Position numbers and translations under genes: made by a program
Shown here: positions 13,675-35,049 of the stretch, piece after piece
Layout: every line of letters begins with the position of its first letter
Numbering within the stretch: position 1 is the first letter of the stretch
Notes under the pieces: model-generated
Told to the model about the DNA's origin: nothing
What the model saw: the letters and a program-made list of their open reading frames with translations, nothing else
The model's database searches: none
Assembly: GCF_005771495.1 (NCBI RefSeq)
Contig: NZ_VAUW01000017.1
Span: forward strand, 1 to 64,000
Direction of reading: 5' to 3'
Length of the DNA stretch: 64,000 bases
Source of the DNA: Maribacter sp. ACAM166
GTDB lineage: Bacteria; Bacteroidota; Bacteroidia; Flavobacteriales; Flavobacteriaceae

Positions 13675-13896
13675 AATATACGTTTCTTCAAGTCCCACAC
13701 CATTCGTAGTAGAATATTCAGATAGTAATACCTAATTAGAATCTTCGCACTAAGTCAAAAATATTTAAATATAATTTTAGTAATTTTTAATGCGTTTAAT
13801 CGAGTAATCTAGCTAATAAGCGAATATGATTCCTGAAAAAAGGATTGAAAGACCACATTTAGTAAATTTATACTTTAATAAATACCTGAATTTGCC

Positions 13897-16800: not shown

Positions 16801-19800
16801 AGTGTAATAACGGTTACTGCAATAGATTCAGATGATAATTCTGTTGAGCAGTCATTTTTGGTGGAAGTTACAGGCTCCCCTATAGTATTATATAGAGTGA
16901 ATACAGGTGGGCCTAAGTTAACGAGTGTTGACGGAGGATTGGACTGGGAAGAGGATACAGTTGCCAATAATTCGCAATATCTTATTGAACCGGCAGGTAA
17001 TAAATTTTTTGCTTCTACTATTTCTAGTTATACCCCAGCTGTAAATTCGTATACGACCCCTTCACAAATTTTTGAGTCTGAACGCTATGATAATCAGGCT
17101 GGTATTCCCAATATGACCTACTCGTTTCCAGTAGCGGTATCTGGTAATTATGAGGTTAGAGTATACATGGGGAATAGTTTTGCCGAAACTTCAAACCTTG
17201 GAGAACGTATTTTTGATGTAGAACTAGAAGGTAATTCTTATCCGGAGTTGAGTTCAATAGATTTATCAGGTACCTATGGCCAAGAGGTGGGGACTATGAT
17301 TACTTATATTCTTCCAGTATTGGATGGAATTATTGATATAAGTTTTATACATGGAGCTATTGAAAACCCATTAGTAAATGGGATTGAGATATTGGATGTT
17401 TCGGACAATCAAACACCCATATATGTTCATGGCATAGAAAATCAAATTAGTAATGCAGGGCAGCAACTTAATGGTAGTTTTGGGGTACAGGCTCTTGGAG
17501 GAGATGGTAATTTAACGTTTTCGGCAACAGGATTACCTTCTGGGGTTACTATAGAACCAACCAATGGTCAAATAGGAGGCACCATAGATGAAACTGCTAT
17601 TTTTGGAAGCCCGTATAGCGTAACCATAACAGTTGATGATAGTGATGCTGATGCAGATGATCAGAAAACTCTTGCGTTTACATGGACTATATTTGATGCA
17701 TTCTCCTTTAGAATTAATGCCGGAGGACCTTCAATTTCTGTCACAGATATAGGGTCTTCATGGGAGGATAATTCAGTTAATGGCCCACAAAATGGGGGTA
17801 ATTATGCTGTAAATACGGGAACTAATACAACAGCAGGGTTAGACTTCAAAAGGAAAGACGCTTCAATTCCCGCTTACATTAATCTAGCTATTTTCGATGC
17901 AATGTATGGCAATGAAAGATATGATGTTGCTGCGGTACCTGAAATGGAATATGCGCTACCTCTAGACAATGGAGATTATTTAGTTAATATATATCTAAGT
18001 AATAGTTTTGCTGGAACAGATCAAATAGGAGAGCGTGTTTTTGATATTTTGATAGAAGGTGTTATTGAAGAAGATGATTTAGATCTAATAGCTAAGTTTG
18101 GTCATCAAGTGGCTGGAATGGTATCTTATCCTATATCTGTTTCTGATGGGGAATTGAATATTAGTTTTGCCCATGAAATAGAAAATCCGGTAATCAATGC
18201 TATAGAAGTTTTTAAAGTAGATAATTCGAATCCTATATTAAGTTTGGATACTATTTCAGATCAATCCAATGATACCTTTGATACAGTATCCATTGCAACA
18301 AGTGCTGTTGGTGGTGACCCTAACGAAATAATTAGGTATTATATGACAGGGCAGCCAGATGGCCTTGTGATTGACGAATTAACGGGTGAAATAAGCGGTA
18401 GTATTACATCAAATGCCTTGACTGGGGGGGCTAATGGAAATGGTGTCCACAGTGTCACCGTTACGGTTTTAAAACGGGGCTCCTCTCCGAGCAGTGTAGT
18501 ATTTACATGGACCGTTATTGGTGATGGTCTTTTTTGGACAGACCTTGATGAGAACGAAAACTATACTGCCAGGCACGAAAATTCGTTTGTGCAAGCAGGA
18601 AATAAGTTCTATTTGATGGGGGGCAGGGAAAATGCCAAGACCATAGATGTGTATGATTATACAAGTAATACCTGGGCCTCCTTGGTTGATTCATCACCCT
18701 TTGAGTTTAATCACTTTCAAGCTACGGAATATAAAGGACTGATATGGGTAATAGGAGCCTTTCAGAACAATGTGTTCCCTTCCGAAGTACCTGCGGACCA
18801 TATTTGGGCCTTCGATACTTCTACCAGTGAATGGATACAAGGGCCCGAAATACCAATGGGTAGAAGACGTGGATCTTCCGGGCTTGTGATTCACAATGAT
18901 AAGTTCTACATTGTTGGGGGTAATACCATCGGCCACGACGGGGGATATGTCAACTGGTTTGATGAGTACGACCCAGCAACAGGTATTTGGACACCTCTAG
19001 TAGACGCGCCGAATGCAAGGGATCATTTCTCGGCTGCTGTCATTGATAATAACCTATACGCTACAGGGGGAAGACTTTCCGGAGGTACCGGAGGGGTTTA
19101 TAAGCCTACTGTTCCAGAGGTAGATGTTTTTGATTTTACGACAGCGACATGGAGCACATTACCGGCAGGCCAGAATATACCGACACCAAGGGGAGCTGCT
19201 TCAACCGTAAACTTTGACAATAAGTTGGTGGTTATTGGGGGTGAGGTACTAAATGAACTAGTGTACGGTGTGAACACTGATGATGCATTGAAGATTACCG
19301 AGCAATATGATCCAAGCACGGGTACATGGAGCCGTTTGCCGGACATGAATTTTGAGCGTCATGGTTCACAAGCCATAGTATCTGGACAAGGTATCTTTAC
19401 TTTGGCGGGTTCTCCCAAACGAGGCGGGGGTAATCAAAAGAATATGGAGGTCTTTGGCATTAATTCTCCTCAGGGTTCAGCCGTTGTGGCCAGTGATTTG
19501 AACGCTCCAAGTTCAATATTGATTGCAAGTGGCACAACCGAGACCATAACACTGGACGTAGTTGGCGGCAATGTGGCTAAGATGATCCGTTCCATACAGT
19601 TGGGTGGCCCCGACGCAGCAGATTTCAGTATCGTAGCCGGATCGCTCTCCAATGCGTTGCTCAATGCGAACACTAGTTATGATATTGTGGTACAGCTAAA
19701 CAACGACATAGGGAATAAGAGTGCTATCCTTACTGTAAATTACGGGGCCACCTCGACCTTGAACATTGCACTGTCCAATACAGAGGACACAGGTCTTTCG

Positions 19801-23300: not shown

Positions 23301-24041
23301 TTATTTAAAATTATACGTCGTTTTTTGTAGTATAGGTTTTAGATAGTGTAGTGTTTTAGTGTCAATGCGTAGCTTTTTTAAGCTTTCTAATTGGGATACC
23401 TTATGAACGTCACTGGCAGCAAAGTCTATTAGATTATTTTTTAATAGCGTTTTTGCTACCTTTTGAACTTCGGTTCCATAATAGTCTCCTAACGACAATA
23501 AATTCAATTGAAACAACAATCCTTTTTTCTTAAGACTTTTGTATTCGCCAAGCCGGTTGTGTAAATAGGCATACCGTTCTGGATGCGCAAAAATGGGAAA
23601 AAGACCTTTATTGGTTATTTTAGTAACCGCTATATCAAAATTTAGAGACGGTTGTAAATAGGACATTTCAATTAATAGATAGCTTTTAGACAGCGGCAGT
23701 ATATTTTTCTCATCTAAAAGTTTTTCAAACCCCGAATCAATCATATGCTCAGCAGCAGCATTCACATTTATATAATCCAAATTATTCATTTTTAAACCAT
23801 TTTTAAGAAGCGATAATGATTTGTTTATTGTGGTTGGATTATTGGGATAATAGTTTTCCATAATATGTGGAGTGCAAATAAAATCTGTAACTCCAAATTC
23901 AGCAAATCCTTTTATCAGTTCAATAGATTCGTCAACAGTCTTAGCACCATCATCTATTCCTGGCAAAATATGATTATGAATATCAATGAAGCCTTCTAGA
24001 TGATCTATTAAAAAATGTTTTTTAGTAAAAAAGCTAAACAT
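23301..24041 (-). CDS. Tyrosine-protein phosphatase, CpsB/YwqE (PHP) family
   Basis: A 246-residue PHP-domain protein. The metal-binding start DIHNHILPGIDDG (residues 19-31) and later CTPHI, AEHMID, FAHPERY and ASDVHK motifs are the conserved metal-binding set of CpsB/CapC/YwqE phosphatases. These manganese-dependent enzymes dephosphorylate the tyrosine cluster of Wzc-type kinases and so set polymer production. The ATG is only 18 bp from the left end of the integrated element at 24060. Before that insertion the gene would have followed mnmE directly on the same strand, so its transcription may have been altered by the insertion. Confidence 0.9.
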   Translation of the reverse strand: MFSFFTKKHFLIDHLEGFIDIHNHILPGIDDGAKTVDESIELIKGFAEFGVTDFICTPHIMENYYPNNPTTINKSLSLLKNGLKMNNLDYINVNAAAEHMIDSGFEKLLDEKNILPLSKSYLLIEMSYLQPSLNFDIAVTKITNKGLFPIFAHPERYAYLHNRLGEYKSLKKKGLLFQLNLLSLGDYYGTEVQKVAKTLLKNNLIDFAASDVHKVSQLESLKKLRIDTKTLHYLKPILQKTTYNFK

Positions 24042-24059: not shown

Positions 24060-24075
24060 TTATTTGCCGATACAG
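24060..24075. other. Left attachment site (attL) of the mobilizable element
   Basis: TTATTTGCCGATACAG, identical over 16 bases to the end of mnmE at 33652-33667. The identity stops sharply on both sides. It is the duplicate copy left by site-specific recombination. Confidence 0.88.
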
Positions 24076-24178
24076 TATCTTCTTATCCCTGTAAACATTG
24101 GGGTAGGGGCGTTCGAGGTGGAAAATAGGTGAAAACTTTTAGTTTCTTTTGATAAGATGATGCTTTCCTTATAGATTG

Positions 24179-24541
24179 TTATTGCAAAATTATATCACTA
24201 TCGATGTTCAATTTTTGATGCAATGCTTTGGCAACATTCAAAGTAATCTCTCTTTTACCGTTCAAATAATCGCTTATTCTTGAGGCACTGGTATTTAAGA
24301 GAGCAGCCAGATCTTTTCGCTTTAGACCCATTTCGAACATACGTAATTCAATCATCTCCTGTAAGGTAGGCAAACCTATTGGAAAATGAATCTCTTCGTA
24401 TTTTTCGATGATATCGCTAATCTTTATAAACTCTTGAGCTAAAGGGTCCTCCGTTGGTGTATTGTCATTTACAACATCTATCAATTCTTCCAAGCGAAGA
24501 TTTGCTTTGACATATTCCTCGTGTGTTATTGTTTTTTCCAT
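24179..24541 (-). CDS. higA: HigA-type antitoxin, XRE helix-turn-helix
   Basis: A 120-residue protein. The C-terminal half is a helix-turn-helix of the XRE/COG5499 type (KRKDLAALLNTSASRISDYLNGKREITLNVAKALHQKL, about residues 74-110). The N-terminal half is the helical region seen in HigA proteins of this group. It lies 4 bp downstream of the toxin gene, in the toxin-first order typical of higBA. It would neutralise HigB and repress the operon. It is the leftmost gene of the mobilizable element, where an addiction module would select for retention. Confidence 0.85.
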   Translation of the reverse strand: MEKTITHEEYVKANLRLEELIDVVNDNTPTEDPLAQEFIKISDIIEKYEEIHFPIGLPTLQEMIELRMFEMGLKRKDLAALLNTSASRISDYLNGKREITLNVAKALHQKLNIDSDIILQ

Positions 24542-24545
24542 AATC

Positions 24546-24842
24546 CTATAACTTATCTATATTCTTTATTTTGTCATAATCTCGGTGATTTCCAACCCAC
24601 CTAATCAGGACTTTCTTAAACTTAAAGCGAACTATAGCTACAACTCGGTAATGGTTTCCCTTGACATTAAAAACAAATCGACCATTGCCGACACTATCTG
24701 CTGTATTGAAGGTGTTCTTTAAATCGGCAAAACTATCCCATTCTGCCTTGTTTGCTTTTTTATACCAATCTTGCAAGGCCACTTTAGCATTGGTTTCTTT
24801 CGAAAAATACTCCCTTAGCTTTTTAAATGAAATGACATGCAC
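24546..24842 (-). CDS. higB: HigB-type toxin (mRNA interferase family)
   Basis: A 98-residue basic protein. The pattern MHVISFKKLREYF ... W-K-AEW-SFADLKNTFNTADSVGNGRFVFNVKGNHYRVVAIVRFKFKKVLIRWVGNHRDYDKI matches the HigB_toxin family (PF09907), ribosome-dependent mRNA endonucleases. Full family length, with the C-terminal HRDYDKI block intact. Translationally close to higA (4 bp). Its own promoter should lie in the 180 bp up to 25024. Confidence 0.88.
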   Translation of the reverse strand: MHVISFKKLREYFSKETNAKVALQDWYKKANKAEWDSFADLKNTFNTADSVGNGRFVFNVKGNHYRVVAIVRFKFKKVLIRWVGNHRDYDKIKNIDKL

Positions 24843-24965
24843 TAGCTCTGCTGATTAATTAAAACGTAAAGATAAGATGAAAATTACATATATGGTTATT
24901 TATTTTCAAAAATTGTAATATTTTGCCCCAAATCTTACCAAAAACTTACCTGCGCGTGGATCCTG

Positions 24966-25013
24966 TCCGGTTTTTGTAGTGTTCCGGCAGATAAGCGTCA
25001 AGCAAAAACCGGA
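24966..25013. repeat. Inverted repeat at the end of the mobilization operon
   Basis: TCCGGTTTTTG (24966-24976) and CAAAAACCGGA (25003-25013) are perfect 11-bp inverted arms around 26 bases. On the minus strand it follows the stop of the last mobilization gene by 12 bp, and could be a terminator with a large loop or a protein-binding site. There is no clear U tract. Confidence 0.5.
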
Positions 25014-25024
25014 TAGGGCGCAAT

Positions 25025-25480
25025 CTACTTTTTGCTTTTGGGTTCTCGCCATTCTTCATAGCGTGCGCTTGCCTCTGGGCTGGCCTCGAAAAATGCCCTG
25101 AAATGCCCGACCGCTTTTTCTTCTCCCTGCCCATAAGCTTTTTGCTTTAGTTCAGAAATTCGGGAAACCTTATAAATGGAGAAACCCAGCACCAAAATTA
25201 TGCTGACGAATAGTCCACAAAATAGCTTTATCGCCCATTTCGGAATCGTCATGGACTTTTTAATGTAGAAGACCACGTTTGCCATCAGTTTGTGTTGGTC
25301 GTTAATGGCCTTTAGCTGATCGTCATTATACCGCTTTAGAATAAAATCGATGTCCGCGGTGTCGGGCTTGATTTTGTAGTTCATCAAAAAAGCCTGAAGC
25401 TCTTCCATGCGACTGACCGAGTTTTCAAACTCTTTAATTTCCTCCGTTAGTAATTCCGCTATTTCTTCTAGTTTTGCCAT
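25025..25480 (-). CDS. Small membrane protein of the mobilization operon, unknown function
   Basis: A 151-residue protein with a charged, probably helical N-terminal half (residues 1-75), one membrane segment (WAIKLFCGLFVSIILVLGFSIY, about 78-100) and a basic, glutamine- and lysine-rich C-terminal tail. The family is not recognised. It starts 4 bp after the relaxase stop, so it is co-transcribed with the relaxase and MobC-like genes. Position and single membrane anchor would fit a protein linking the relaxosome to a conjugation channel supplied by another element. That is an inference from context only. Confidence 0.6.
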   Translation of the reverse strand: MAKLEEIAELLTEEIKEFENSVSRMEELQAFLMNYKIKPDTADIDFILKRYNDDQLKAINDQHKLMANVVFYIKKSMTIPKWAIKLFCGLFVSIILVLGFSIYKVSRISELKQKAYGQGEEKAVGHFRAFFEASPEASARYEEWREPKSKK

Positions 25481-25484
25481 AATT

Positions 25485-26354
25485 TCATATTTCCATTCCT
25501 AATCCAATTGTTTTTTTGATGGCCAATTTAATCGCCTTTTGCGCAATGTTCGCTGCCAAGGTGGGAGATACCCCTATCGTTTTGCCTAATAGTAGCATGG
25601 TGTTTTCTTTACCAATTTTTTGAGCGATATTTTTATAAAAACCCATTCGCTCTGCTATTCGTCCTATTGACATGGAACGATGAACTTCACTTCCCTTTAG
25701 GTTTTGGCCTTTGTATGCAAAGCGAAAACCCCGCAGCTGATTTGATTTGTTAATGCTAGGAATGAGTTCAACACTCCTCTGTTTCATGAATTTTATATAT
25801 TGGTCAAAATCCTTGGGTTTAAGTTCCGTAATAACCTTTTCATGGATTTGCTGTATTTCCTGTCTTACATTTTTTATTTCGTTCAATTTCTCTTGTTGTA
25901 CTTCCCGTACCGTGGTCAAACCCATTTGCTTTGCCACCTTTTCAGCTGCCTGTTGGCTTCGTTTTCCCACATAGTTATCCTTGTAAGCTCTGCCATCAAA
26001 ACCAATACGGTTTACATACAAATGAATATGTATATGGCTTTTATCTTGGTGTACAAAAGCAATCGCCTGTCGTTCTTGTAATTTCATTTCTTTGATGAAC
26101 CTTTCCGTAATTTCCTTTAGTTCTTTTTCTTTCAATTCTTGTCCATCTTCAATGGTTGGGCTAAGCACAAAACTCAAGGTGTTTTTTTCACATCTATGGT
26201 TTTGCGATTGTATGATCTTGAATTCCTGAGTAATCTCTTTGGGATTGTCCCCTGCCAAATGTTCGCGGTAGACCACTTTAGCATCTTTCTCTTCGTTCCA
26301 GCCATATCCCATAGAGGCTCCTGTATGCGATATGGATTTTCCCATGCCTATCAT
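25485..26354 (-). CDS. Relaxase / mobilization nuclease (MobB-like, Bacteroidota type)
   Basis: A 289-residue relaxase. The three-histidine metal site H107-I-H109-I-H111 follows the segment QAIAFVHQDKS, and the N-terminal block SISHTGASMGYGWNEEKDAKVVYRE is typical of short relaxases on Bacteroidota mobilizable elements. The enzyme nicks oriT and stays bound to the DNA 5' end during transfer. The ATG overlaps the stop of the MobC-like gene (4-base overlap). No coupling protein or mating-pore gene is nearby, so transfer would need a helper element. The fold is complete through the catalytic region; the C terminus is short and basic. Confidence 0.85.
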   Translation of the reverse strand: MIGMGKSISHTGASMGYGWNEEKDAKVVYREHLAGDNPKEITQEFKIIQSQNHRCEKNTLSFVLSPTIEDGQELKEKELKEITERFIKEMKLQERQAIAFVHQDKSHIHIHLYVNRIGFDGRAYKDNYVGKRSQQAAEKVAKQMGLTTVREVQQEKLNEIKNVRQEIQQIHEKVITELKPKDFDQYIKFMKQRSVELIPSINKSNQLRGFRFAYKGQNLKGSEVHRSMSIGRIAERMGFYKNIAQKIGKENTMLLLGKTIGVSPTLAANIAQKAIKLAIKKTIGLGMEI

Positions 26355-26647
26355 TTTTTGAAATTGTAAAGATGTTTCCGTATTTCGTTGGCCAACTGGA
26401 TCACTTCATTAGCTAGTTTCGGATTTCGTTTTCGGTACATATTGCCGATTCGCTTAAAGTTGATTTGATACTGAACCAGTAACTTATACACATCAATTTG
26501 TTCATCGGAAAACCGTTCGACAATTCTAATATCAAAAGCGGCACGGCGACAATATTCACTTATGGAAAGTCCGCTCTTTTTGGCTTTGATTTTGAGCAGC
26601 TTCTTCTCATAAATAGAACACCGAAATTGTACAAACTCCTTTTTCAC
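26351..26647 (-). CDS. MobC-like relaxosome accessory protein
   Basis: A 98-residue protein. The start KEFVQFRCSIYEKKLLKIKAKKSGLSISEYCRRAAFD is a ribbon-helix-helix-like DNA-binding segment found in mobilization accessory proteins of Bacteroidota elements. The rest is helical (QINFKRIGNMYRKRNPKLANEVIQLANEIRKHL), matching the MobC type. It is the first gene of the mobilization operon and overlaps the relaxase gene by 4 bases. It likely binds oriT and helps the relaxase. The oriT should lie just upstream (26648-26775), where a strong hairpin is found. Confidence 0.78.
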   Translation of the reverse strand: MKKEFVQFRCSIYEKKLLKIKAKKSGLSISEYCRRAAFDIRIVERFSDEQIDVYKLLVQYQINFKRIGNMYRKRNPKLANEVIQLANEIRKHLYNFKK

Positions 26648-26740
26648 TTTAGTTATTTTAATTGTAGTATTATCTGTTAATTCCTTTATCGGAAACTCGG
26701 TTACTAGTTCCTATTCTTTTGCGACCAACGGGAGAAAAAG

Positions 26741-26770
26741 CAAGATTTGTCATGACAATGACACATCTTG
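26741..26770 (-). terminator. Hairpin downstream of the primase gene: terminator, or part of oriT
   Basis: CAAGAT-T-TGTCAT and ATGACA-C-ATCTTG form 13-base arms with one mismatch around a 4-base loop. On the minus strand the hairpin follows the primase stop by 5 bases and is followed by CTTTTT, as a rho-independent terminator would be. It also sits in the gap ahead of the MobC-like gene, the usual place of oriT. Both readings remain open. Confidence 0.6.
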
Positions 26771-26775
26771 AATTC

Positions 26776-27654
26776 TTACTCAGATGGGTTTTCATCGCTA
26801 TATTTGGTTTTATCTTTTCTTGCGATATACATCTCATTTATATCTTTGAAATCTTTATATAAATAGGATTTGTCTTTGCAGTATTTATGATTTTGCATTA
26901 ACCAATTGGTAGCATCTTTGCCTGCTGTATCATTATCCAGATACAGTTCAACGTCCTTGAAAAATTCTATAAACGGCATAGCTTTTTTAATAAAGGATAG
27001 GGAGTTTAGAATGAGGAAAGACTTGTTATCATGACAAAAATTTGTGACCGTTAAAAAATCAAACATTCCTTCCGTCACTACCAATTGACTACATCCGTTG
27101 GACAGAAATGTACTATCCTTTGGGGATGATGAACTCTTAAAATATTGATTACGAAGTTCCCAACCACCGGAATCGTTCTGCAGTCCAATACCGAAATAAT
27201 GGTTCCCTTTACAGGAATAATGAACTTCCTTGCAATACTTTTTAGCGGTTTCCAGTTTTACGTTCCGTTCGTTCAGATACGTCTTAAGACCATAATGCCA
27301 AATGGAATTAACACTTTTGACAATCAAGCTAGTATTCTCGGGAGGCACAAAATGTTGCGGGTGAAAAGAAAAAGAGGACGGTATATCCGACAGGAAGTGT
27401 AGTGCATCAAGAATGCGGCAGTCGTAAAACCGGACGACCAAATCTAGTACATTTCCTCCAAAGCCTGCCCCGTGGTCGAACCATAGATTTTTGACTTTCG
27501 ACACCTTAAAAGAGGCATGGGTTTCCGGCCGGAACGGACTTCGAAACCAAGCTTCTTTAGTGTTTTCCTTACATGGAAAATGTCCTGCTTTAGCCATTGT
27601 TTTAACGATACAAACTGCACGGACTCTTTTCCAGTCAATTTTTTCCCGATTCAT
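26776..27654 (-). CDS. Primase-like protein: degenerate CHC2 domain plus Toprim domain
   Basis: A 292-residue protein. Residues 15-90 follow the CHC2-type layout of Bacteroidota mobile-element primases (EAWFRSPFRPETHASFKVSKVKNLWFDHGAGFGGNVLDLV), but the zinc-ligand cysteine and histidine set is not present. A Toprim domain follows, with VVTEGMFDFLT (catalytic glutamate, about residue 195) and LYLDNDTAGKDA (acidic pair, about 240). It probably primes replication of the element. Its ATG overlaps the stop of the excisionase-like gene by 4 bases, forming a two-gene operon. Confidence 0.8.
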   Translation of the reverse strand: MNREKIDWKRVRAVCIVKTMAKAGHFPCKENTKEAWFRSPFRPETHASFKVSKVKNLWFDHGAGFGGNVLDLVVRFYDCRILDALHFLSDIPSSFSFHPQHFVPPENTSLIVKSVNSIWHYGLKTYLNERNVKLETAKKYCKEVHYSCKGNHYFGIGLQNDSGGWELRNQYFKSSSSPKDSTFLSNGCSQLVVTEGMFDFLTVTNFCHDNKSFLILNSLSFIKKAMPFIEFFKDVELYLDNDTAGKDATNWLMQNHKYCKDKSYLYKDFKDINEMYIARKDKTKYSDENPSE

Positions 27655-27938
27655 CTATGCCTGTTTTTAAAGGTGTAGTTCAGCGCTTCGGTCTCGATTT
27701 CCGACCTTGACTTTCTTTCATTCTGTAAAAGCCATGTATTGAGTTTGACCTTTTCAAAGAACAGCATTTTGCCGTTGGGTTTTGAGTGCGGGATATTTCC
27801 TGAGGCCGTCAGTTTGTATAGATAGCTTCTCGATATTCCGGTATAGTCACTGGTTTCCTCAAAGGTGAGTACTTCCTTATTGGCTATTAAAAGCCGTTCT
27901 AAACGATCAAGTCGTTCTAGGATTAAAAAATTGTCCAT
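27651..27938 (-). CDS. Excisionase-like helix-turn-helix protein
   Basis: A 95-residue protein. An N-terminal helical stretch (LERLDRLERLLIANKEVL) precedes a winged helix-turn-helix (LTFEETSDYTGISRSYLYKLTASGNIPHSKPNGKMLFFEKVKLNTWLL, about residues 24-72) of the HTH_17/excisionase type. Such proteins bend DNA at attachment sites or regulate mobile-element operons. It is first in an operon with the primase gene. An 18-bp perfect palindrome lies 27 bp upstream, and the iteron-like region a little further away. Confidence 0.8.
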   Translation of the reverse strand: MDNFLILERLDRLERLLIANKEVLTFEETSDYTGISRSYLYKLTASGNIPHSKPNGKMLFFEKVKLNTWLLQNERKSRSEIETEALNYTFKNRHR

Positions 27939-27964
27939 TTGTTTCTTTTTAGGGTTTCGAAATG

Positions 27965-27982
27965 AACAAAAGCGCTTTTGTT
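27965..27982. promoter_or_regulatory. 18-bp perfect palindrome upstream of the excisionase-primase operon
   Basis: AACAAAAGCGCTTTTGTT is a perfect palindrome 27 bp before the ATG at 27938. Its size and place fit an operator for a dimeric regulator, perhaps the excisionase-like protein itself. Confidence 0.55.
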
Positions 27983-28051
27983 TTCTTTTGAAGAATTCTT
28001 AAGATAAAGGTAAAGTAAAGGAAGGGTGGAAGCTTAGTTTTTCAGTTTTAT

Positions 28052-28201
28052 TTATCCACAATAATCTGATATACAATTACTTATATTAAATGAATTTAAA
28101 TGAATTCAAATGTGATGTGCTAATTTTGATTTGGTTTCAAATGGCTTTAAATGGGATCACTTGATTTTTGTCAAATATGAAAGAATTTTGAGTTATCAAC
28201 A
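28052..28201. other. Candidate replication origin: DnaA boxes and iteron-like repeats
   Basis: The 660-bp gap 27939-28599 has no gene. It holds TTATCCACA (28052-28060), a perfect match to the strong DnaA box, and TTATCAACA (28193-28201), one mismatch away. Between them are five copies of a short repeat, TTYAAATG or ATTAAATG, starting at 28085, 28095, 28105, 28136 and 28146, i.e. mostly 10 bp (one helical turn) apart. The region is strongly AT-rich and lies next to the primase operon. This layout is that of an iteron origin; arm-type integrase or excisionase sites are the alternative. The rest of the gap (28205-28599) shows nothing clear. Confidence 0.55.
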
Positions 28202-28599
28202 ATTTCAAATCGTTAATTACGAAAATGTTAGTTAAAAAAAGGTCAATTTTAATGTTTTTAAGAGCAGTCCAGTACATAAAAATTGCTTGAATCAACTTTT
28301 CACTCTGATAATGAATAAGATACTATAGATTTTTCCTTTTACCGAACTTTAGGAGTTCACTTGCCAATAATATGAACACGTCCCGTAACCAACTAATTTA
28401 GTTTTTTTCTATATTCCTTTATCTTCATTTCTCTAAACTTAAGTTATGGTTGTTTTCAATTTAAACATCAAGTTAATTCATAGATATATCGGTTCAAAAG
28501 TGACACCATATCGTACCTCTCAAAATAAGTAATAAGATTTTAGTTTAAAGTCTCCGTTATCATTACGTTTAAAGCTAAAATTAATTTAGTATATTCTCC

Positions 28600-29793
28600 A
28601 TGATAATTATTTTGAAATGCTTAAACGGAATGATAAAAACTTGTGTAGAAAATTCTGGTTTAATACGTCTGAGTCTATTTCTCTGTATTATGCAATTAGG
28701 TTGCATAGACCCCGTCGCCCCCGAATTTCAATTTGAAGACGATTTGACTATAATCGAAGGTCAAGCAAGTTCAACCGTTGGCTCTTCGTTTATCAATATT
28801 CAGAGGACCAGTAATGAATTCGGCATATACAGAAACATATTTCAAGAAGGGGCCATAGTCACTTTTGACAATCTCGACTCGGGGGAATCGGTGACTTTGC
28901 GAGAACAAATAGATACTTATGTTACGCCAGACGACTTTGCTGTCGCCACTGGTGAAACTTGGGAACTGAACGTCACTTTAACCGACGGTAGCACCTACAA
29001 GTCCTTGCCGGAAACGGTAATCGCCCCAGTACCCTTTGACGATATATCCGCTACATTTGAAAAAGAGCTCTTTTTCAGGGAGGATTCAGGAAAATTCGTG
29101 CCAGGGCACAGCATAGCAGTAAGTTTCAATGAACCTGTAGCAGACAAAAATTACTACCTCTGGCGATTTCGTTCTTTTGAGAAACTAATTTTATGTAAGG
29201 TTTGTGATAATTCCATTTTTAGAAATGGGGATTGTGAAAGGAATCCGCCACCACCAGCGGTTCTTCCTGTGGGCGTTCCTCGCAGAGCGCCATATTATAC
29301 GTACGGTTGCGAAACACCGTGCTGGACCATTCGCTATAATGAGTCTATTGAAATTCTAGACGATAAATTTACGAACGGCACATTCGTCGAGGAGTATCCT
29401 GCGGCAAATATCCCATTATACACGAATGAAAATATTGTCGTTTCGTTAGAACAAATATCTCTGTCTTTTGATGCCTACCAGTACTACCGTAGATTACAGG
29501 ATATTATCGATAATAACGGAAATTTCGATGCGCCACCACCTGCCGCTGTAATAGGAAACGTATTCAATGTAAATGACGATAAAGAGATGGTGTTGGGCCG
29601 ATTCACGGCGGCTTCCAATACTGTCAAGTCAATTTTTATTGAACGGACGGATATATTGGATGACGAAGTTGACCCGCCACCGATATTTAGTTTTGAAACC
29701 GATCCTCCTATTGGAAATCCAATCAGTTTTGCCCCCTGTATAGAAAGTCGATTTAGAACCGGTACTGAACCTGAAGGATGGATTGGAAATTGA
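28600..29793 (+). CDS. DUF4249 family outer-membrane-associated lipoprotein (cargo)
   Basis: A 397-residue protein. The signal sequence ends in a lipobox-like IMQLGC with the acylated cysteine at residue 35 (or 25 if the ATG at 28630 is used, which gives a more usual signal length). The body has the DUF4249 features: IIEGQASS near the start of the mature protein, alternating beta-strand pattern, and cysteine pairs CKVCDNSIFRNGDC and YGCETPCW. DUF4249 proteins are regularly encoded beside a TonB-dependent receptor, as here (31 bp gap). The transported substrate is unknown. It is cargo of the mobilizable element and richer in G+C than the mobilization genes. Confidence 0.82.
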   Translation: MIIILKCLNGMIKTCVENSGLIRLSLFLCIMQLGCIDPVAPEFQFEDDLTIIEGQASSTVGSSFINIQRTSNEFGIYRNIFQEGAIVTFDNLDSGESVTLREQIDTYVTPDDFAVATGETWELNVTLTDGSTYKSLPETVIAPVPFDDISATFEKELFFREDSGKFVPGHSIAVSFNEPVADKNYYLWRFRSFEKLILCKVCDNSIFRNGDCERNPPPPAVLPVGVPRRAPYYTYGCETPCWTIRYNESIEILDDKFTNGTFVEEYPAANIPLYTNENIVVSLEQISLSFDAYQYYRRLQDIIDNNGNFDAPPPAAVIGNVFNVNDDKEMVLGRFTAASNTVKSIFIERTDILDDEVDPPPIFSFETDPPIGNPISFAPCIESRFRTGTEPEGWIGN

Positions 29794-29824
29794 AAGGATA
29801 ATCGATTACATAAATAGTTTATAA

Positions 29825-32227
29825 ATGAATAGAAACTTCCGTAATATAGCAATATTGATTCTGTTTTACGGATATGTCTGCCAATCCCAAAGCTATGATC
29901 TTTCTCTTGAAACAACAGCGATGGGCAGACCATTGGCCAATACCCAGATTGCTATAGACCCATGTTCCTGTGGCGGACTTACCGACAATGAAGGCCTGTT
30001 TGCAATTTCCCTGCCAGCCAACAACTATAGCGTTACCATTACCTATATCGGTTTTGCAACCGAAGTTCGGGAAATTGAACTTAACAGTAATATATTTTTA
30101 GAAATTGAGCTCAAAGAGCAACAAGAAATGCTTTCAGAGGTCATCGTTAAGGCCAAGACACAGAACGAAAACCTTACCGTACCGCAAATGGGTGTTGTAA
30201 GGCTAACATCCAAAGAGCTAAAAAAGATTCCTTCGGCAGTAGGCGAATTTGATGTGCTTAGAGCAATGACCCTCCTCCCTGGGGTGAACAATGCCGGAGA
30301 AATCAGTAATGGTCTTACCGTACGTGGAGGTTCCCTAGATCAGAATCTCATTCTTTATGACTATGCCCCTGTTTTTAATCCCACCCATCTGTTCGGACTT
30401 TTTTCCGTGTTCACTCCCGATGTCATCTCATCATCCGATCTCTACAGAGCCAACATTCCATCCCGGTACGGGGGAAGGGCGACCTCCGTGTTAGATGTCA
30501 AGGTCAAGAATCCCTACGTGGATAAGTTGAAGCTTAGCGGAGGTATTGGATTGGTTTCCAGTCGATTAAATATCGAAACACCTGTTATTAAGGATAAATT
30601 AATGCTGCTGGCCGGAGTAAGGGCCGGCGTGACCGATTTTTTATTACCCATCTTTTCAGAGCGTTTAAACAATACCAAGGCCAAGTTCTATGATAGCACC
30701 GTGAAGCTACTTTACCTTCCTACAGAGAATGATCAAGTGACTTTTACCGGATTCTTTTCCAAAGACTTTTACCAGTTGGATTTGGTGACACCTGTACAGA
30801 ACATAAATGCCGAGAGCAACCAATACGATTTCATGACCCTTAACGGAACCCTTAACTGGTCCCATAGTTTTGAGAATAATTCTAATTTAAGGACTATAGT
30901 GGTAGCTAGTGACTACAGTCCCAAAATTATATTTCCTGAGCGTGATAGCGATAACGAGGTCGAGTATAGCTCAAAAATCAACTATCTAAGTCTCATTTCG
31001 GAATTTTCAAAGAAACAGAGTCCTAATATGGAGTATTATCTTGGAGGGCAGGTCAACCGTTACAATATTGGCCCGGGTGCGCTTGACCCTGGATCAGCGG
31101 AAAACGTACTCCCGATTTCCTTGGAAAATGAAATTAGCTATGAATTCGCCGGCTATGGTAATGCCAATTGGACACCGATTAAAGCACTTTCCATTTCCGC
31201 GGGACTTCGTTTTAACCATTTTGTTCTTGTAGGGCCCTATACACAAAATACGTTCGACAATTTCAGTGGGGAGTTGTTGGGTACCACGCAATTTGAAAAA
31301 GGCGCGGGAGTAAAAACCTACAATGGTCTGGAACCACGACTGGGACTGAACTTGGAACTGGACGAAACTACATCGTTGAAGGCAAGCTACGCCAGACTGA
31401 ACCAATACTTACAGAATATTTATAACAATACCACGCCCGTACCCACTTCTCGATGGAAGACCTCCGACCCTACAGTACTGCCACAGGTAAGTGATAGCTA
31501 TGGCTTTGGAATATATAAGAATTTAAACAACAATGCAATACAACTTGGTCTAGAAGGATATTATAGAGAGGTGGATAATATTTTGACCTATAAGCCCGGG
31601 GCGGACTTCTTTTTGAGTGAAACCATAAACCGGGATCTGGTCCAAGGTGAAGGACAAGCATACGGTGCCGAATTCAGTTTAAGAAAACCTGAGGGTACTA
31701 TCAATGGCTGGATGAACTACACATGGTCTAGAAGTCGTTTACGCTCCCAAATAGAGAAGCCCGGGGATAGAATCAATAACAATGAATGGTATGCCTCTGA
31801 TTTTGACAGGACACATGTGTTCAACGCTACGATGAATATAGAGTCCAATCCTTACAATACCCTAAGCTTTAATTTTACCGCTCAGACCGGTAGACCTTAT
31901 ACCGCTCCCAATGGCGTTGTGGAAATCGAAGGTATAGATACACCGCTTTTTTTGGAGAGGAACAACGCGAGGTTACCTACATATCATCGACTTGATTTTT
32001 CATGGAATATCAGGGGTGTTAAAAGTGAAAGCAAAAGATGGTCCGGTGATTGGACCTTTACCGTTTATAATCTATATGCAAGAAGAAACCCTTACAGTAT
32101 TTACTATACACAAAGGAACGGTGGGGAGAACGGTGAAATTTTTGGGGACAGTCCTCTTGGTGCTTTCGAGCTTTCCATACTGAACAGCCCTCTTGTCTCA
32201 TTGACCTATAACTTTGTTTTTGATTGA
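29825..32227 (+). CDS. TonB-dependent receptor with N-terminal carboxypeptidase-like regulatory domain (cargo)
   Basis: An 800-residue outer-membrane receptor. A signal peptide (1-21, ending CQSQS) is followed by a CarboxypepD_reg-like domain (about 25-100, GRPLANTQIAIDPCSCGGLTDNEGLF), a plug domain (about 115-225; VLRAMTLLPGVNNAGEISNGLTVRGGSLDQNLILYD) and a 22-strand-type barrel to the C terminus (LVSLTYNFVF). It is shorter than SusC proteins and is partnered by DUF4249, not SusD. The Cys-Ser-Cys in the regulatory domain is unusual. Substrate cannot be told. Transcription ends at the strong bidirectional terminator at 32276-32314. Confidence 0.88.
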   Translation: MNRNFRNIAILILFYGYVCQSQSYDLSLETTAMGRPLANTQIAIDPCSCGGLTDNEGLFAISLPANNYSVTITYIGFATEVREIELNSNIFLEIELKEQQEMLSEVIVKAKTQNENLTVPQMGVVRLTSKELKKIPSAVGEFDVLRAMTLLPGVNNAGEISNGLTVRGGSLDQNLILYDYAPVFNPTHLFGLFSVFTPDVISSSDLYRANIPSRYGGRATSVLDVKVKNPYVDKLKLSGGIGLVSSRLNIETPVIKDKLMLLAGVRAGVTDFLLPIFSERLNNTKAKFYDSTVKLLYLPTENDQVTFTGFFSKDFYQLDLVTPVQNINAESNQYDFMTLNGTLNWSHSFENNSNLRTIVVASDYSPKIIFPERDSDNEVEYSSKINYLSLISEFSKKQSPNMEYYLGGQVNRYNIGPGALDPGSAENVLPISLENEISYEFAGYGNANWTPIKALSISAGLRFNHFVLVGPYTQNTFDNFSGELLGTTQFEKGAGVKTYNGLEPRLGLNLELDETTSLKASYARLNQYLQNIYNNTTPVPTSRWKTSDPTVLPQVSDSYGFGIYKNLNNNAIQLGLEGYYREVDNILTYKPGADFFLSETINRDLVQGEGQAYGAEFSLRKPEGTINGWMNYTWSRSRLRSQIEKPGDRINNNEWYASDFDRTHVFNATMNIESNPYNTLSFNFTAQTGRPYTAPNGVVEIEGIDTPLFLERNNARLPTYHRLDFSWNIRGVKSESKRWSGDWTFTVYNLYARRNPYSIYYTQRNGGENGEIFGDSPLGAFELSILNSPLVSLTYNFVFD

Positions 32228-32275
32228 ACTAACTGATCATATTGATCAAAGGATACTTTCTTCTTAAAAGAATTA

Positions 32276-32314
32276 GGCTGTAGTTTAATATCAACGCAAT
32301 ATTAAACTACAGCC
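32276..32314. terminator. Bidirectional terminator between receptor and integrase genes
   Basis: Perfect 16-bp arms (GGCTGTAGTTTAATAT at 32276-32291; complement at 32299-32314) with a 7-base loop. It separates the convergent receptor and integrase genes, 48 bp from one stop and 17 bp from the other. Confidence 0.85.
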
Positions 32315-32331
32315 AACATTTTAAAACGGCT

Positions 32332-33468
32332 TTAGCTAATATCCAGATTCAACTCAGGAATCAGATTAGCCGCTTCCTTCATTTTTTCATCAATGATTTT
32401 GGTGTAAATTTCTGTAGTTCGGATTTCTTTGTGCCCTAAACGTTTAGACACGGTATAGATATCTGCACCATTTTCGAGCAGGAGTACTGCATTTGTATGG
32501 CGTGCACTATGGAAAGTGATATGCTTGGTAATGCCTGCTTTCATGCACCACCTTAGAATTTCGGTGTTGTAAACCGCACCATATTTCAAGCCTTTGAAAA
32601 CCCGATCACTTTCGTTGGCTCGTTCTCCCAGTAGTTTTCTTGATTGCTCTGAAACATAAAGGTATTCGAGTCCGTCGGTCTTCTTTTGTCTAAATATAAT
32701 TCGCGTACCCGTATCTTCGTCGCGGACTTCTGACCATTTCATTTTATCAATATCGCTCCATCGTAAGCCTGTAAGGCAACTAAAAATAAAAGCACTCTTT
32801 AATATAGGGTACTTACATTCGGCTTGTGTCATAGCCTGTAATTCCGAATAAGTTAAGTATTCTCTAGTGGATTCACCCTGTTCAAAACCCTTAACCGATC
32901 GCAACACATTTTCTTCCAAATAATTTTCGGTATAAGCTTCCCGTAAGGCTGCTTTGAATTTATTAAAATAAGAGTATTTAGAATTTTGTGATAGGGGAGT
33001 ACCACTCTTGGTTTTAGCCTTGGTATTTAAATAGCGCTTGAACCCTTTTACAAATTCTGTATTAATATCCTTTAGCTGCTTCTGGGGCGGACAATATCTC
33101 TCGATGTGTTTTTGAGCGGCATCCCAATTCCCATAGTTGGCTTTCGTCTCAAAACGATCTTCCTTAAGCTGTGTATAATAATCCATAAAGGTTACTTGTC
33201 CTTTTTTATCATTCTTTAATTTGAATTTCCCCTGATAGAATTCAGCTTTACGAATGGAAAGAATCTTTTCGGCAAGTTCATAGATTTCTTTATTATTTCT
33301 CTTTTCATCGGCAGTATTAGGATTTTCTAGCGGGTAAAGCTTTAAATACTCGAAATCACGATCGTATTTATTTACACCGTTTTTATCAATATAATGGCCT
33401 TTGTAAAATTCAATAAAGAGACTGAATTTTCCGTTTTTAATCTTTTTGGTTCTTAGACTTATTTTCAT
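32332..33468 (-). CDS. Tyrosine recombinase / integrase of the mobilizable element
   Basis: A 378-residue site-specific recombinase of the Bacteroidota type. It has an N-terminal arm-binding region, a SAM-like core-binding domain (about 95-200, TFMDYYTQLKEDRF) and a catalytic domain. The active residues are all visible: R236 (TGLRWSD), K262/K263 (RQKKTDG), H320 and R323 (HSARH), H346 (LGHKEI) and nucleophile Y355 (TTEIYTKI). It lies 184 bp from the right attachment site, the normal place for an integrase using the 3' end of a gene as target. It catalyses integration and, with the excisionase-like protein, excision. Confidence 0.93.
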   Translation of the reverse strand: MKISLRTKKIKNGKFSLFIEFYKGHYIDKNGVNKYDRDFEYLKLYPLENPNTADEKRNNKEIYELAEKILSIRKAEFYQGKFKLKNDKKGQVTFMDYYTQLKEDRFETKANYGNWDAAQKHIERYCPPQKQLKDINTEFVKGFKRYLNTKAKTKSGTPLSQNSKYSYFNKFKAALREAYTENYLEENVLRSVKGFEQGESTREYLTYSELQAMTQAECKYPILKSAFIFSCLTGLRWSDIDKMKWSEVRDEDTGTRIIFRQKKTDGLEYLYVSEQSRKLLGERANESDRVFKGLKYGAVYNTEILRWCMKAGITKHITFHSARHTNAVLLLENGADIYTVSKRLGHKEIRTTEIYTKIIDEKMKEAANLIPELNLDIS

Positions 33469-33608
33469 GGTCGAGGTGAAATTATTTCATCTTGACTACT
33501 AAAAATTACGCCGAGATGAAAATTAGATGAAATAAATATATGAAAATAGGAGATTAAGAGAAAGAGAGAATAAAAATACTTTTTAACAACTTATTGATTT
33601 ACAGGTAT

Positions 33609-33638
33609 ATGAAACCAAATAGAACCATATGAAACCAT
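33609..33638. repeat. Three 10-bp-phased repeats beside the right attachment site
   Basis: ATGAAACCAA, ATAGAACCAT and ATGAAACCAT begin at 33609, 33619 and 33629, exactly 10 bp apart, 14 bp from the 16-bp att core. They fit arm-type binding sites for the integrase. Confidence 0.6.
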
Positions 33639-33651
33639 ATTAAATACTTAT

Positions 33652-33667
33652 TTATTTGCCGATACAG
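33652..33667. other. Right attachment site (attR) overlapping the mnmE stop codon
   Basis: TTATTTGCCGATACAG. Read on the minus strand it encodes the end of MnmE (Cys-Ile-Gly-Lys-stop), so insertion restores the gene exactly. The identical copy is at 24060-24075. Confidence 0.9.
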
Positions 33668-35049
33668 AAATTGGCAAAAATATTTCCTAAAAGCTCATCA
33701 TTGGTTATTTCTCCTGTTATTTCACCAAAATAAAATAAAGCGGCTTTGATATCTAAGGATAGTAAATCCCCACTGAGTTCATTGTCTAATCCTTGTTGTA
33801 CTTTCTTTATTTCAGTCAAAGCATTTAAAAGGGAATCGTAGTGTCTACTATTGGTAACTATGGTTTCGTTATTTCGTAGTTTGCCTGTTTCTACAAAACT
33901 TAATAGTTTATTTTCAAGCTGGTCTACTCCAATTTTTTCTCTTGCTGATAAGTGAATTGAATTTGGGAAATGACTATTCAATTCTTCGGTAAATTCTTTA
34001 GTGATTCTATCAACTTTATTAATGACTGTAATGACTGATTTTTCTTTAAATCTTTCTGTGATTTTATTTAGTGCTGTTTTAGCCTCAACCACTTTATTGG
34101 TATTTAAGAATAGTTCATCACCACTAACTAGATATAGAATGACTTGGGCCTTCTCTGTTTTTTCATACGTGCGTTGAATTCCCATCCCTTCAATAACATC
34201 AGTTGTTTCACGGATGCCTGCAGTATCAATAAATCGGAAACTAATTCCGCCGATTACTATTTCATCTTCAATAGTATCCCTAGTAGTCCCAGCAATGTCT
34301 GAAACTAAAGCTCTTTCTTCGTTTAACAAAACATTTAATAGCGTCGATTTACCAACATTAGGTTCTCCTATAATAGCCACAGGAACACCTGTTTTTATTA
34401 CATTACCCAAAGCGAAAGAATCGATGAGTTTTTTAAGAACCTCCTCCAGCTCGTTTAAAAGCTTTCTAAATTCATCTCTATTTGCAAATTCTACGTCTTC
34501 TTCAGAAAAATCCAATTCCAGTTCTATGAGGGAAGCGAAATTCAAAAGTTGTTGTCGTAGTTCTTTTATTTTATTACTAAAACCCCCACGCATCTGTTGA
34601 ATTGCAACCTGATGGTTAGAGGCATTGTCACTGGCAATTAAATCAGCGACTGCTTCTGCTTGACTTAAATCCATTTTTCCGTTCAAAAAAGAACGCATGG
34701 TAAATTCCCCAGGAGTTGCCATTCTAATTCCATTTCTTAGAAACAGTTGAATAATTTCTTGCTGAATGAATAAAGACCCATGGCATGAAATTTCAATAAC
34801 ATCCTCACCAGTATATGAATTAGGGTTTTTAAATATGGATATTAAGACTTGGTCTAAAACATTTTTTCCATCCTTAATAAAACCTAAATGTAGCGTGTGA
34901 GTTTTTTGTTTTTCTAACTTTTTGCCGGATACGGATTCAAAATGTTGAGATACTATAGAAATTGCATTTACTCCAGAAAGTCTGATAATGGCAATAGCTC
35001 CAGAACCGGATGGAGTTGCTAATGCTATTATGGTATCTGTATGAATCAT
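33652..35049 (-). CDS. mnmE: tRNA uridine-5-carboxymethylaminomethyl(34) synthesis GTPase MnmE
   Basis: A 465-residue protein of normal length. The N-terminal tetrahydrofolate-binding domain (DTIIALATPSGSGAIAIIRLSG) is followed by a helical domain with the inserted G domain: GEPNVGKSTLLN (about 226-237), DIAGTTRDT, DTAG and INKVD. The C terminus ends in the invariant C-I-G-K. With MnmG it modifies the wobble uridine of several tRNAs. The last codons, including the stop, are the integration target of the mobilizable element, and remain intact. A TATTTTTGC element lies immediately upstream of the start on the minus strand. Confidence 0.95.
   Translation of the reverse strand: MIHTDTIIALATPSGSGAIAIIRLSGVNAISIVSQHFESVSGKKLEKQKTHTLHLGFIKDGKNVLDQVLISIFKNPNSYTGEDVIEISCHGSLFIQQEIIQLFLRNGIRMATPGEFTMRSFLNGKMDLSQAEAVADLIASDNASNHQVAIQQMRGGFSNKIKELRQQLLNFASLIELELDFSEEDVEFANRDEFRKLLNELEEVLKKLIDSFALGNVIKTGVPVAIIGEPNVGKSTLLNVLLNEERALVSDIAGTTRDTIEDEIVIGGISFRFIDTAGIRETTDVIEGMGIQRTYEKTEKAQVILYLVSGDELFLNTNKVVEAKTALNKITERFKEKSVITVINKVDRITKEFTEELNSHFPNSIHLSAREKIGVDQLENKLLSFVETGKLRNNETIVTNSRHYDSLLNALTEIKKVQQGLDNELSGDLLSLDIKAALFYFGEITGEITNDELLGNIFANFCIGK

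Follow-up and report, generated by a model that had tools for sequence, protein, structure and literature searches.

A probable integrative mobilisable element in the last codons of mnmE in Maribacter, with an integrase related to that of Salmonella genomic island 1

The 3′ end of mnmE, the gene for a tRNA modification GTPase, houses a mobile element in the flavobacterium Maribacter sp. ACAM166. We analysed a window of 64,000 nucleotides from this genome (contig NZ_VAUW01000017.1, positions 1 to 64,000), in which a segment of about 9.6 kb is, with high confidence, best explained as an integrative mobilisable element (IME) that enters the final codons of mnmE through site-specific tyrosine recombination. 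Its integrase belongs to a lineage that is keyed to this site, is widespread in Bacteroidota, and either includes the integrase of Salmonella genomic island 1 (SGI1) or is sister to it. An IME at mnmE is in itself an element of an already known kind; the kinship and the reach of the integrase are the subject of what follows.

The element is bounded by a perfect 16-bp direct repeat, TTATTTGCCGATACAG, at 24060–24075 and 33652–33667, its copies lying 9,592 bp apart. With up to two mismatches allowed, these are the only two sites in the window (shuffled sequences hold a mean of 0.05, and 0 of 100 held two), and with up to one mismatch they are the only two in the 4.92-Mb genome. On the minus strand, the right copy reads C-TGT-ATC-GGC-AAA-TAA, that is, the last base of a Phe codon followed by the Cys-Ile-Gly-Lys-stop end of mnmE, whose frame (33652–35049) is intact. 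The left copy is separated by 18 bp from the start of a chromosomal phosphatase gene. The original prediction, made from the letters of this stretch, had placed the repeat here and read its right copy as the end of an undamaged mnmE, and both points hold.

Inward from mnmE come the integrase gene, then a convergent pair encoding a TonB-dependent receptor and a DUF4249 protein, and then a minus-strand run from the excisionase-like gene to higA (Table 1). The predicted set of integrase, excisionase-like, primase, relaxase, MobC-like and toxin-antitoxin genes is present, but it lacked the DUF4249 and receptor genes, the plus-strand cargo. Two defining traits of an IME can be found here: an integrase and flanking direct repeats at a specific site, together with its own relaxase (PF03432) and MbpA, and no mating-pore families among the ten element proteins scanned with Pfam and NCBIfam. 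Two TraG homologues score over cut-off elsewhere in the genome, making conjugative helpers plausible. The integrase carries the R-K-H-R-H-Y active site of tyrosine recombinases (R236, K263, H320, R323, H346 and Y355), and these residues are invariant wherever they are aligned, in 119–121 of 121 mnmE-adjacent integrases.

Across Bacteroidota genomes, the mnmE 3′ end emerges as the habitual site of this integrase lineage, well beyond the window's genome. From the GTDB set, in which 140 relatives were found, all 80 loci kept lie at the mnmE 3′ end: 78 directly, with the gene end 151–228 bp upstream of the integrase match and in the same orientation, and two (L055 and L062) as the second element of a tandem array. 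In these arrays, an exact site copy (one mismatch in L062) follows a first element with its own start at mnmE, and the first integrase is 32% (L055, with L229 and L230) or 43% (L062, with L233) identical to that of the window. A family sample gave 52 matches, from which 30 loci were fetched, including the window's and at least one genome shared with the GTDB set; 28 of the other 29 adjoin mnmE, and the remaining one begins at a contig end. In a phylum sample, 21 of 345 genomes had a match (the window's included), yielding 22 new loci with up to about 1.5 kb read upstream. Twelve of these adjoin mnmE, among them L185, L188 and L191 from outside the class, whose integrases are 42–44% identical to the window's. 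On a FastTree phylogeny of 133 integrases, with L055 and L062 not scored as mnmE, the mnmE label needs 6 changes, as against 11.6 in shuffles (0 of 500 as low). As a control, the window's genome holds 21 PF13102 matches, only one of which is on the mnmE contig and beside mnmE. A phage or plasmid origin was considered and rejected. The integrase matches 17 phage and 23 plasmid records, all below 60% identity; of four phage-labelled records read among the 17, three hold an mnmE 3′ end and look chromosomal, and the fourth starts at the integrase. No relatives of the integrase were found in viral contigs.

The link to SGI1 comes from two phage-labelled records, OR845421 (L234) and OR850969 (L235, from a Salmonella Kentucky preparation), which carry an enterobacterial mnmE end and SGI1-type genes and are probably bacterial host DNA in phage preparations. 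In L235, a 405-residue integrase lies 203 bp past mnmE; it is 41% identical to the window's over residues 1–373 of 378 (99% of the length, 381 columns, E 4e-99), with the same two Pfam domains. Beyond it lie genes for an HTH_17 protein, in convergent orientation, and for a RepA_C protein; in a Salmonella record identical to L235 over 772 bp, the genes for RepA_C, TraN, an insertion-sequence transposase, TraG and TraH come in succession. The published order in SGI1 is int, xis, rep (with a RepA_C domain), traN, traG, traH (PMC9035990, PMC7433901), and the tail of L235, GGGAAGTAA, matches the proximal tail given for SGI1, GGGAAGTAA (PMC9035990). By gene order and tail, we infer that L235 is an end of SGI1. 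The window's excisionase-like protein is 36% identical over 73 residues to one beside the SGI1-type integrase. A second gammaproteobacterial integrase, from E. coli 1585m1 (L238), lies 163 bp past mnmE; its identity is 39% with the window's integrase and 68% with that of L235. Integrases of published SGI1-related elements resemble one another far more, the lowest listed value being 64.82% nucleotide identity. Among E. coli genomes without a normal mnmE–tnaC junction, the three regions read differ by another gene, and no SGI1-type integrase occurs in a viral contig carrying a gammaproteobacterial mnmE.

The original prediction rightly proposed a mobilisable element using the same terminal mnmE codons as SGI1 (PMC3285670, PMC9035990, PMC2297512). 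It went on to call the integrase apparently unrelated and the choice of target convergent, so that SGI1-type and Bacteroidota integrases would have reached mnmE independently. The first of these claims fails on the near full-length match to L235, and the second is now improbable. The two share domains, target codons and spacing from the gene (203, 163 and 183 bp in L235, L238 and the window, respectively), while the similarity of the window's integrase to fifteen other PF13102-type integrases in its genome is confined to part of the length, at 21–41% identity and a best E of 4e-31. By this comparison, the SGI1-type integrase is clearly homologous to the window's lineage.

Phylogenies put the SGI1-type integrases with that lineage as well. 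In an outgroup-free tree with midpoint rooting, the two gammaproteobacterial integrases fall among the Bacteroidota mnmE integrases on starred branches (99/94 and 96/85). In a tree rooted on the fifteen other integrases of the window's genome, they lie in the ingroup (88/80, unstarred), with the clade of the window's integrase (86/96). The rooted tree left out the first integrase of the L055 array (L055_first), which has a long branch, and the trees used 385 of the 405 residues of the L235 integrase. A topology with the SGI1-type integrases outside all Bacteroidota ones is not rejected (p-AU 0.232), so that a nested origin is favoured but not proven. Independent arrival would draw some support from the same rooted tree: the ingroup holding both has just 88/80 support, and the mnmE label changes at least 6 times, with 3 changes forced by starred branches. 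Some relatives also sit at dnaK or other places, and the mobilisation, replication and transfer genes of SGI1 are wholly different. Integrases away from mnmE are interspersed among the lineage and the SGI1-type integrases, so loss and regain of mnmE specificity are possible. Shared descent of that specificity between the SGI1 and window integrases is nevertheless the simpler reading. Judged on protein families, the window element is kin of SGI1 in its recombination module and not a member of the SGI1 family, as none of MpsA/MpsB, rep, traN, traG or sgaC was found among the ten element proteins with Pfam and NCBIfam.

Natural variation at wobble positions allows the exchange region to be mapped without experiment. 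We compared the two sites of 39 pairs (24, 3 and 12 genomes' pairs), with expectations from re-pairing sites; the L106 pair, which differs at positions 1 and 16, was left out of this tally. Mismatches fall well short of expectation at the Cys wobble (4 observed, 15.9 expected) and the Ile wobble (5 and 16.3), but not at the Phe wobble (19 and 19.7); the values for Gly, Lys and stop are 18 and 25.2, 16 and 20.0, and 10 and 12.8, respectively. The protein end is nearly constant, with FCIGK-stop encoded in 113 of 114 MnmE tails and an N in that codon in the exception (L091). Where integrases are alike and hosts unlike (51 pairs), agreement at the Gly, Lys and stop wobbles is 0.69, 0.82 and 0.94, and over the 10 bp that follow 0.78; where hosts are alike and integrases unlike (75 pairs), the values are 0.40, 0.49, 0.60 and 0.36, and in random pairs 0.47, 0.55, 0.80 and 0.45, although pairs are not mutually independent. 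The terminal wobbles thus track the integrase rather than the host, so that elements bring their own final codons to mnmE while FCIGK is kept. In SGI1, too, the element supplies the final 9 bp of the proximal site (PMC9035990). Its proposed 7-bp overlap includes bases 5 and 9 of 18, and a difference at base 9, the Ile wobble, is tolerated (PMC2297512), so the overlap is consistent with the exchange region proposed for Bacteroidota elements. The idea that the SGI1 exchange region is shifted by one codon was rejected because base 9 falls inside the 7-bp overlap (PMC2297512).

Relatives show the site both filled and empty. We read the mnmE loci of 29 relatives, mostly congeners, up to 1.5 kb downstream. 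Four (L130, L131, L133 and L134) have an empty site, with the phosphatase match 19–91 bp past the mnmE stop and one repeat copy each in the 3.5–4.4 kb read. This is the arrangement that the original prediction expected of element-free strains, and element-free relatives keeping two copies, which would have spoken against it, did not appear here. Four others (L115, L119, L120 and L132) carry an integrase of the window's lineage behind mnmE, three (L128, L137 and L141) a more distant integrase, and one (L121) the phosphatase 898 bp past mnmE; neither phosphatase nor integrase was seen within this distance in 17 of the 29. The mnmE 3′ site is polymorphic within the genus.

Second sites were sought with the pattern YTGYATHGGNAARTRR in 48 genomes, 32 of which were tallied: 31 in which the site ahead of the integrase is exact, and L062, where it has one mismatch. 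A second same-strand site lies on the element's side within 60 kb in 24 of the 31, at a distance of 9.3–39.9 kb, as against one genome (L055, a tandem) with a same-strand site on the other side; L058 has an opposite-strand copy and L107 a third site. A second copy is present in 12 of 20 genomes that were fetched at up to 40 kb (one at only 6.9 kb). In 4 of 20 distal flanks, the phosphatase is the next gene, 50–85 bp on, so that excision would restore the mnmE–phosphatase junction across elements of 24–40 kb.

These boundaries bear on whether the true element is larger or composite, the repeat enclosing only part of it. Tandem arrays at the mnmE site and the third site in L107 would fit such an element, as would the GC content of the cargo (42.3%, against 36.7% for the integrase) and a DUF4249/TonB-receptor pair, 53–73% identical to the window's cargo, that lies just beyond the distal site in L042 and L043 (also in L208). 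We nonetheless regard a larger element as very improbable, given that the genome holds only two repeat sites and that the gene beyond the distal one is the mnmE neighbour of empty-site congeners.

The lineage has spread between hosts. Between the window and L033, integrase identity is 92% and MnmE identity 63%; the integrases of L080 (Sphingobacterium) and L103 (Frigoriflavimonas) are 93% identical, with MnmE at 49%; and in 271 of 6,555 pairs, integrase identity exceeds MnmE identity by 20 points or more. HigB is 93–94% and HigA 92% identical in L040, L042 and L043. Cargo was surveyed in 13 bounded relatives (114 of 143 frames scanned; the families listed are 25 of 188 and 25 of 97). Among the families listed are restriction-modification types I–III, Argonaute, Fic, ABC transporters, two-component systems and hydrogenase-related proteins, each in few members; in genome G145, the cargo includes ABC transporters and Fic. 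Separately, locus L161 (genome G118) holds HypB-like, HypF, HypD and AIR-synthase-like hydrogenase maturation genes at 12007–17439, between its two mnmE-type sites.

Drawing these threads together, we propose that strand exchange would occur within the Cys-Ile-Gly codons (TGYATHGG), the circle bringing its own Gly-Lys-stop to replace that of the host so that MnmE keeps FCIGK. The small helix-turn-helix protein may direct excision, the relaxase and MbpA would nick an origin of transfer (oriT) with a resident conjugative element providing the pore, and HigBA could stabilise the element.

Several observations weigh against an active element of a site-specific lineage. The relaxase scores far under the MbpB cut-off (89.7 against 400 bits), and no oriT was identified, the hairpin upstream of mbpA barely beating shuffles (z −1.70; 12 of 200 equally good). 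No second copy matching the pattern was found in 7 of the 31 and 8 of the 20 genomes, and some site pairs, such as those of L038 and L048, have a mismatch within the proposed exchange region, in these two at the Ile wobble, even though the phosphatase is the next gene after the distal site. Specificity is also not absolute: 10 of the 22 new phylum loci are not beside mnmE in the stretch read. Two of these integrases (L202 and L204, 38–39% identical) sit behind the end of an Hsp70/dnaK-type gene (L202 by Pfam, L204 by eye), which suggests a sister lineage that targets the end of a different conserved protein gene, and the other eight loci are at other or unseen places. As a side observation, four genomes of one family outside the class (L192–L195) have integrases, 42–44% identical, behind a divergent gene that is not mnmE.

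Another reading is a fixed remnant, in which integrase and site persist in an element that no longer excises or transfers; the relatives that show no second site would fit it. We consider this unlikely, since the repeat is perfect, the backbone frames are open and the catalytic residues are kept, while integrases are far more alike than host genes and congeners are empty or carry other integrases. An IME inserted by its own integrase remains our preferred explanation of the segment.

The features on which this account draws are collected in Table 1. The inverted repeat between the integrase and receptor genes is a probable two-way terminator. Beside the element, positions 13897–22743 are a single frame of 2,948 residues with six He_PIG, malectin, Kelch and PKD domains.

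Table 1. Positions of the element's genes, attachment sites and chromosomal neighbours in the window
Feature	Position	Strand	Basis
Distal attachment site, 18 bp from the start of the chromosomal CpsB/CapC-type phosphatase gene	24060..24075	-	repeat search
mnmE-proximal attachment site: Phe last base, Cys-Ile-Gly-Lys codons and stop of mnmE	33652..33667	-	repeat search
mnmE, tRNA modification GTPase, target gene, intact	33652..35049	-	PF12631, PF10396
Tyrosine integrase	32332..33468	-	PF13102 + PF00589
Perfect 16-nt inverted repeat with 7-nt loop, between the convergent integrase and TonB-receptor stops	32276..32314	.	sequence
Cargo: TonB-dependent receptor	29825..32227	+	protein family match
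Cargo: DUF4249 protein	28600..29793	+	protein family match
Helix-turn-helix (HTH_17) protein, probable excisionase	27651..27938	-	TIGR01764 over cut-off
Primase-like protein, DnaG-like	26776..27654	-	Toprim_2
MbpA/NikA-like mobilisation accessory protein	26351..26647	-	NF041418, 120.7 bits, over the cut-off of 90
Relaxase, MobA/VirD2-like	25485..26354	-	PF03432; NF041420 (MbpB) 89.7 bits, below the cut-off of 400: related, non-member
DUF6730 protein, behind the relaxase in several relatives too	25025..25480	-	protein family match
HigB-type toxin of a toxin-antitoxin pair	24546..24842	-	PF09907
HigA-like antitoxin	24179..24541	-	under the HigA model's cut-off
Chromosomal CpsB/CapC-type phosphatase, outside the element; mnmE neighbour in empty-site congeners	23301..24041	-	domain match and congener comparison

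We speculate that the integrase/excisionase module of SGI1 is an offshoot of a phylum-wide Bacteroidota mnmE lineage that moved between phyla into Gammaproteobacteria, where it was fused to new mobilisation and replication genes. In Bacteroidota, the mnmE end would be a standing port where diverse cargo, including defence genes, docks, stacks in tandem and overwrites the last codons. We find this history as a whole plausible, though we would stop a little short of calling it probable. SGI1 is a clinically important resistance island, and relatives of its docking module occur across Bacteroidota at the same codons. One element becomes a rule by which Bacteroidota genomes can be checked for islands at a single place, and the conservation of FCIGK at the MnmE terminus explains why a protein gene is able to act as a near-universal site in the manner of a tRNA gene. 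The integrases may also serve for site-specific integration in Flavobacteria.

In the open-licence PMC literature, we found no description of the mnmE site in Bacteroidota; no search was aimed at a link between SGI1 and Bacteroidota integrases. Elements described there at tRNA genes include the 10K island of R. anatipestifer (tRNA-Arg; PMC6764341) and ICECleSHZ29 (PMC12561888). NBU1, NBU2, Tn4555 and cLV25 of Bacteroides are likewise Bacteroidota IMEs and are listed with MobP relaxases and conjugative helpers (PMC5704250), but none of them is placed at mnmE in the entries consulted. SGI1 and its relatives in Gammaproteobacteria are, like the window element, IMEs at the last 18 bp of mnmE (also named trmE or thdF), and they share with it a homologous integrase and an excisionase-like protein; tandem arrays occur both among them and among relatives of the window element. 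The window element differs in its Bacteroidota host, in having a MobA/VirD2-type relaxase and MbpA instead of MpsA/MpsB, and in lacking RepA_C, TraN, TraG and TraH. The element of E. coli 1585m1 is likewise integrated at mnmE and differs in its mobilisation gene, annotated as MobI-type. In Photorhabdus and Xenorhabdus, which are Gammaproteobacteria, different islands occupy one trmE site that forms a region of plasticity (PMC3091717). Finally, dusA-targeting integrases offer a parallel: these lineages, too, use a conserved protein gene as their target, and its frame is restored, but there the target is the 5′ end of the gene (PMC8409611).

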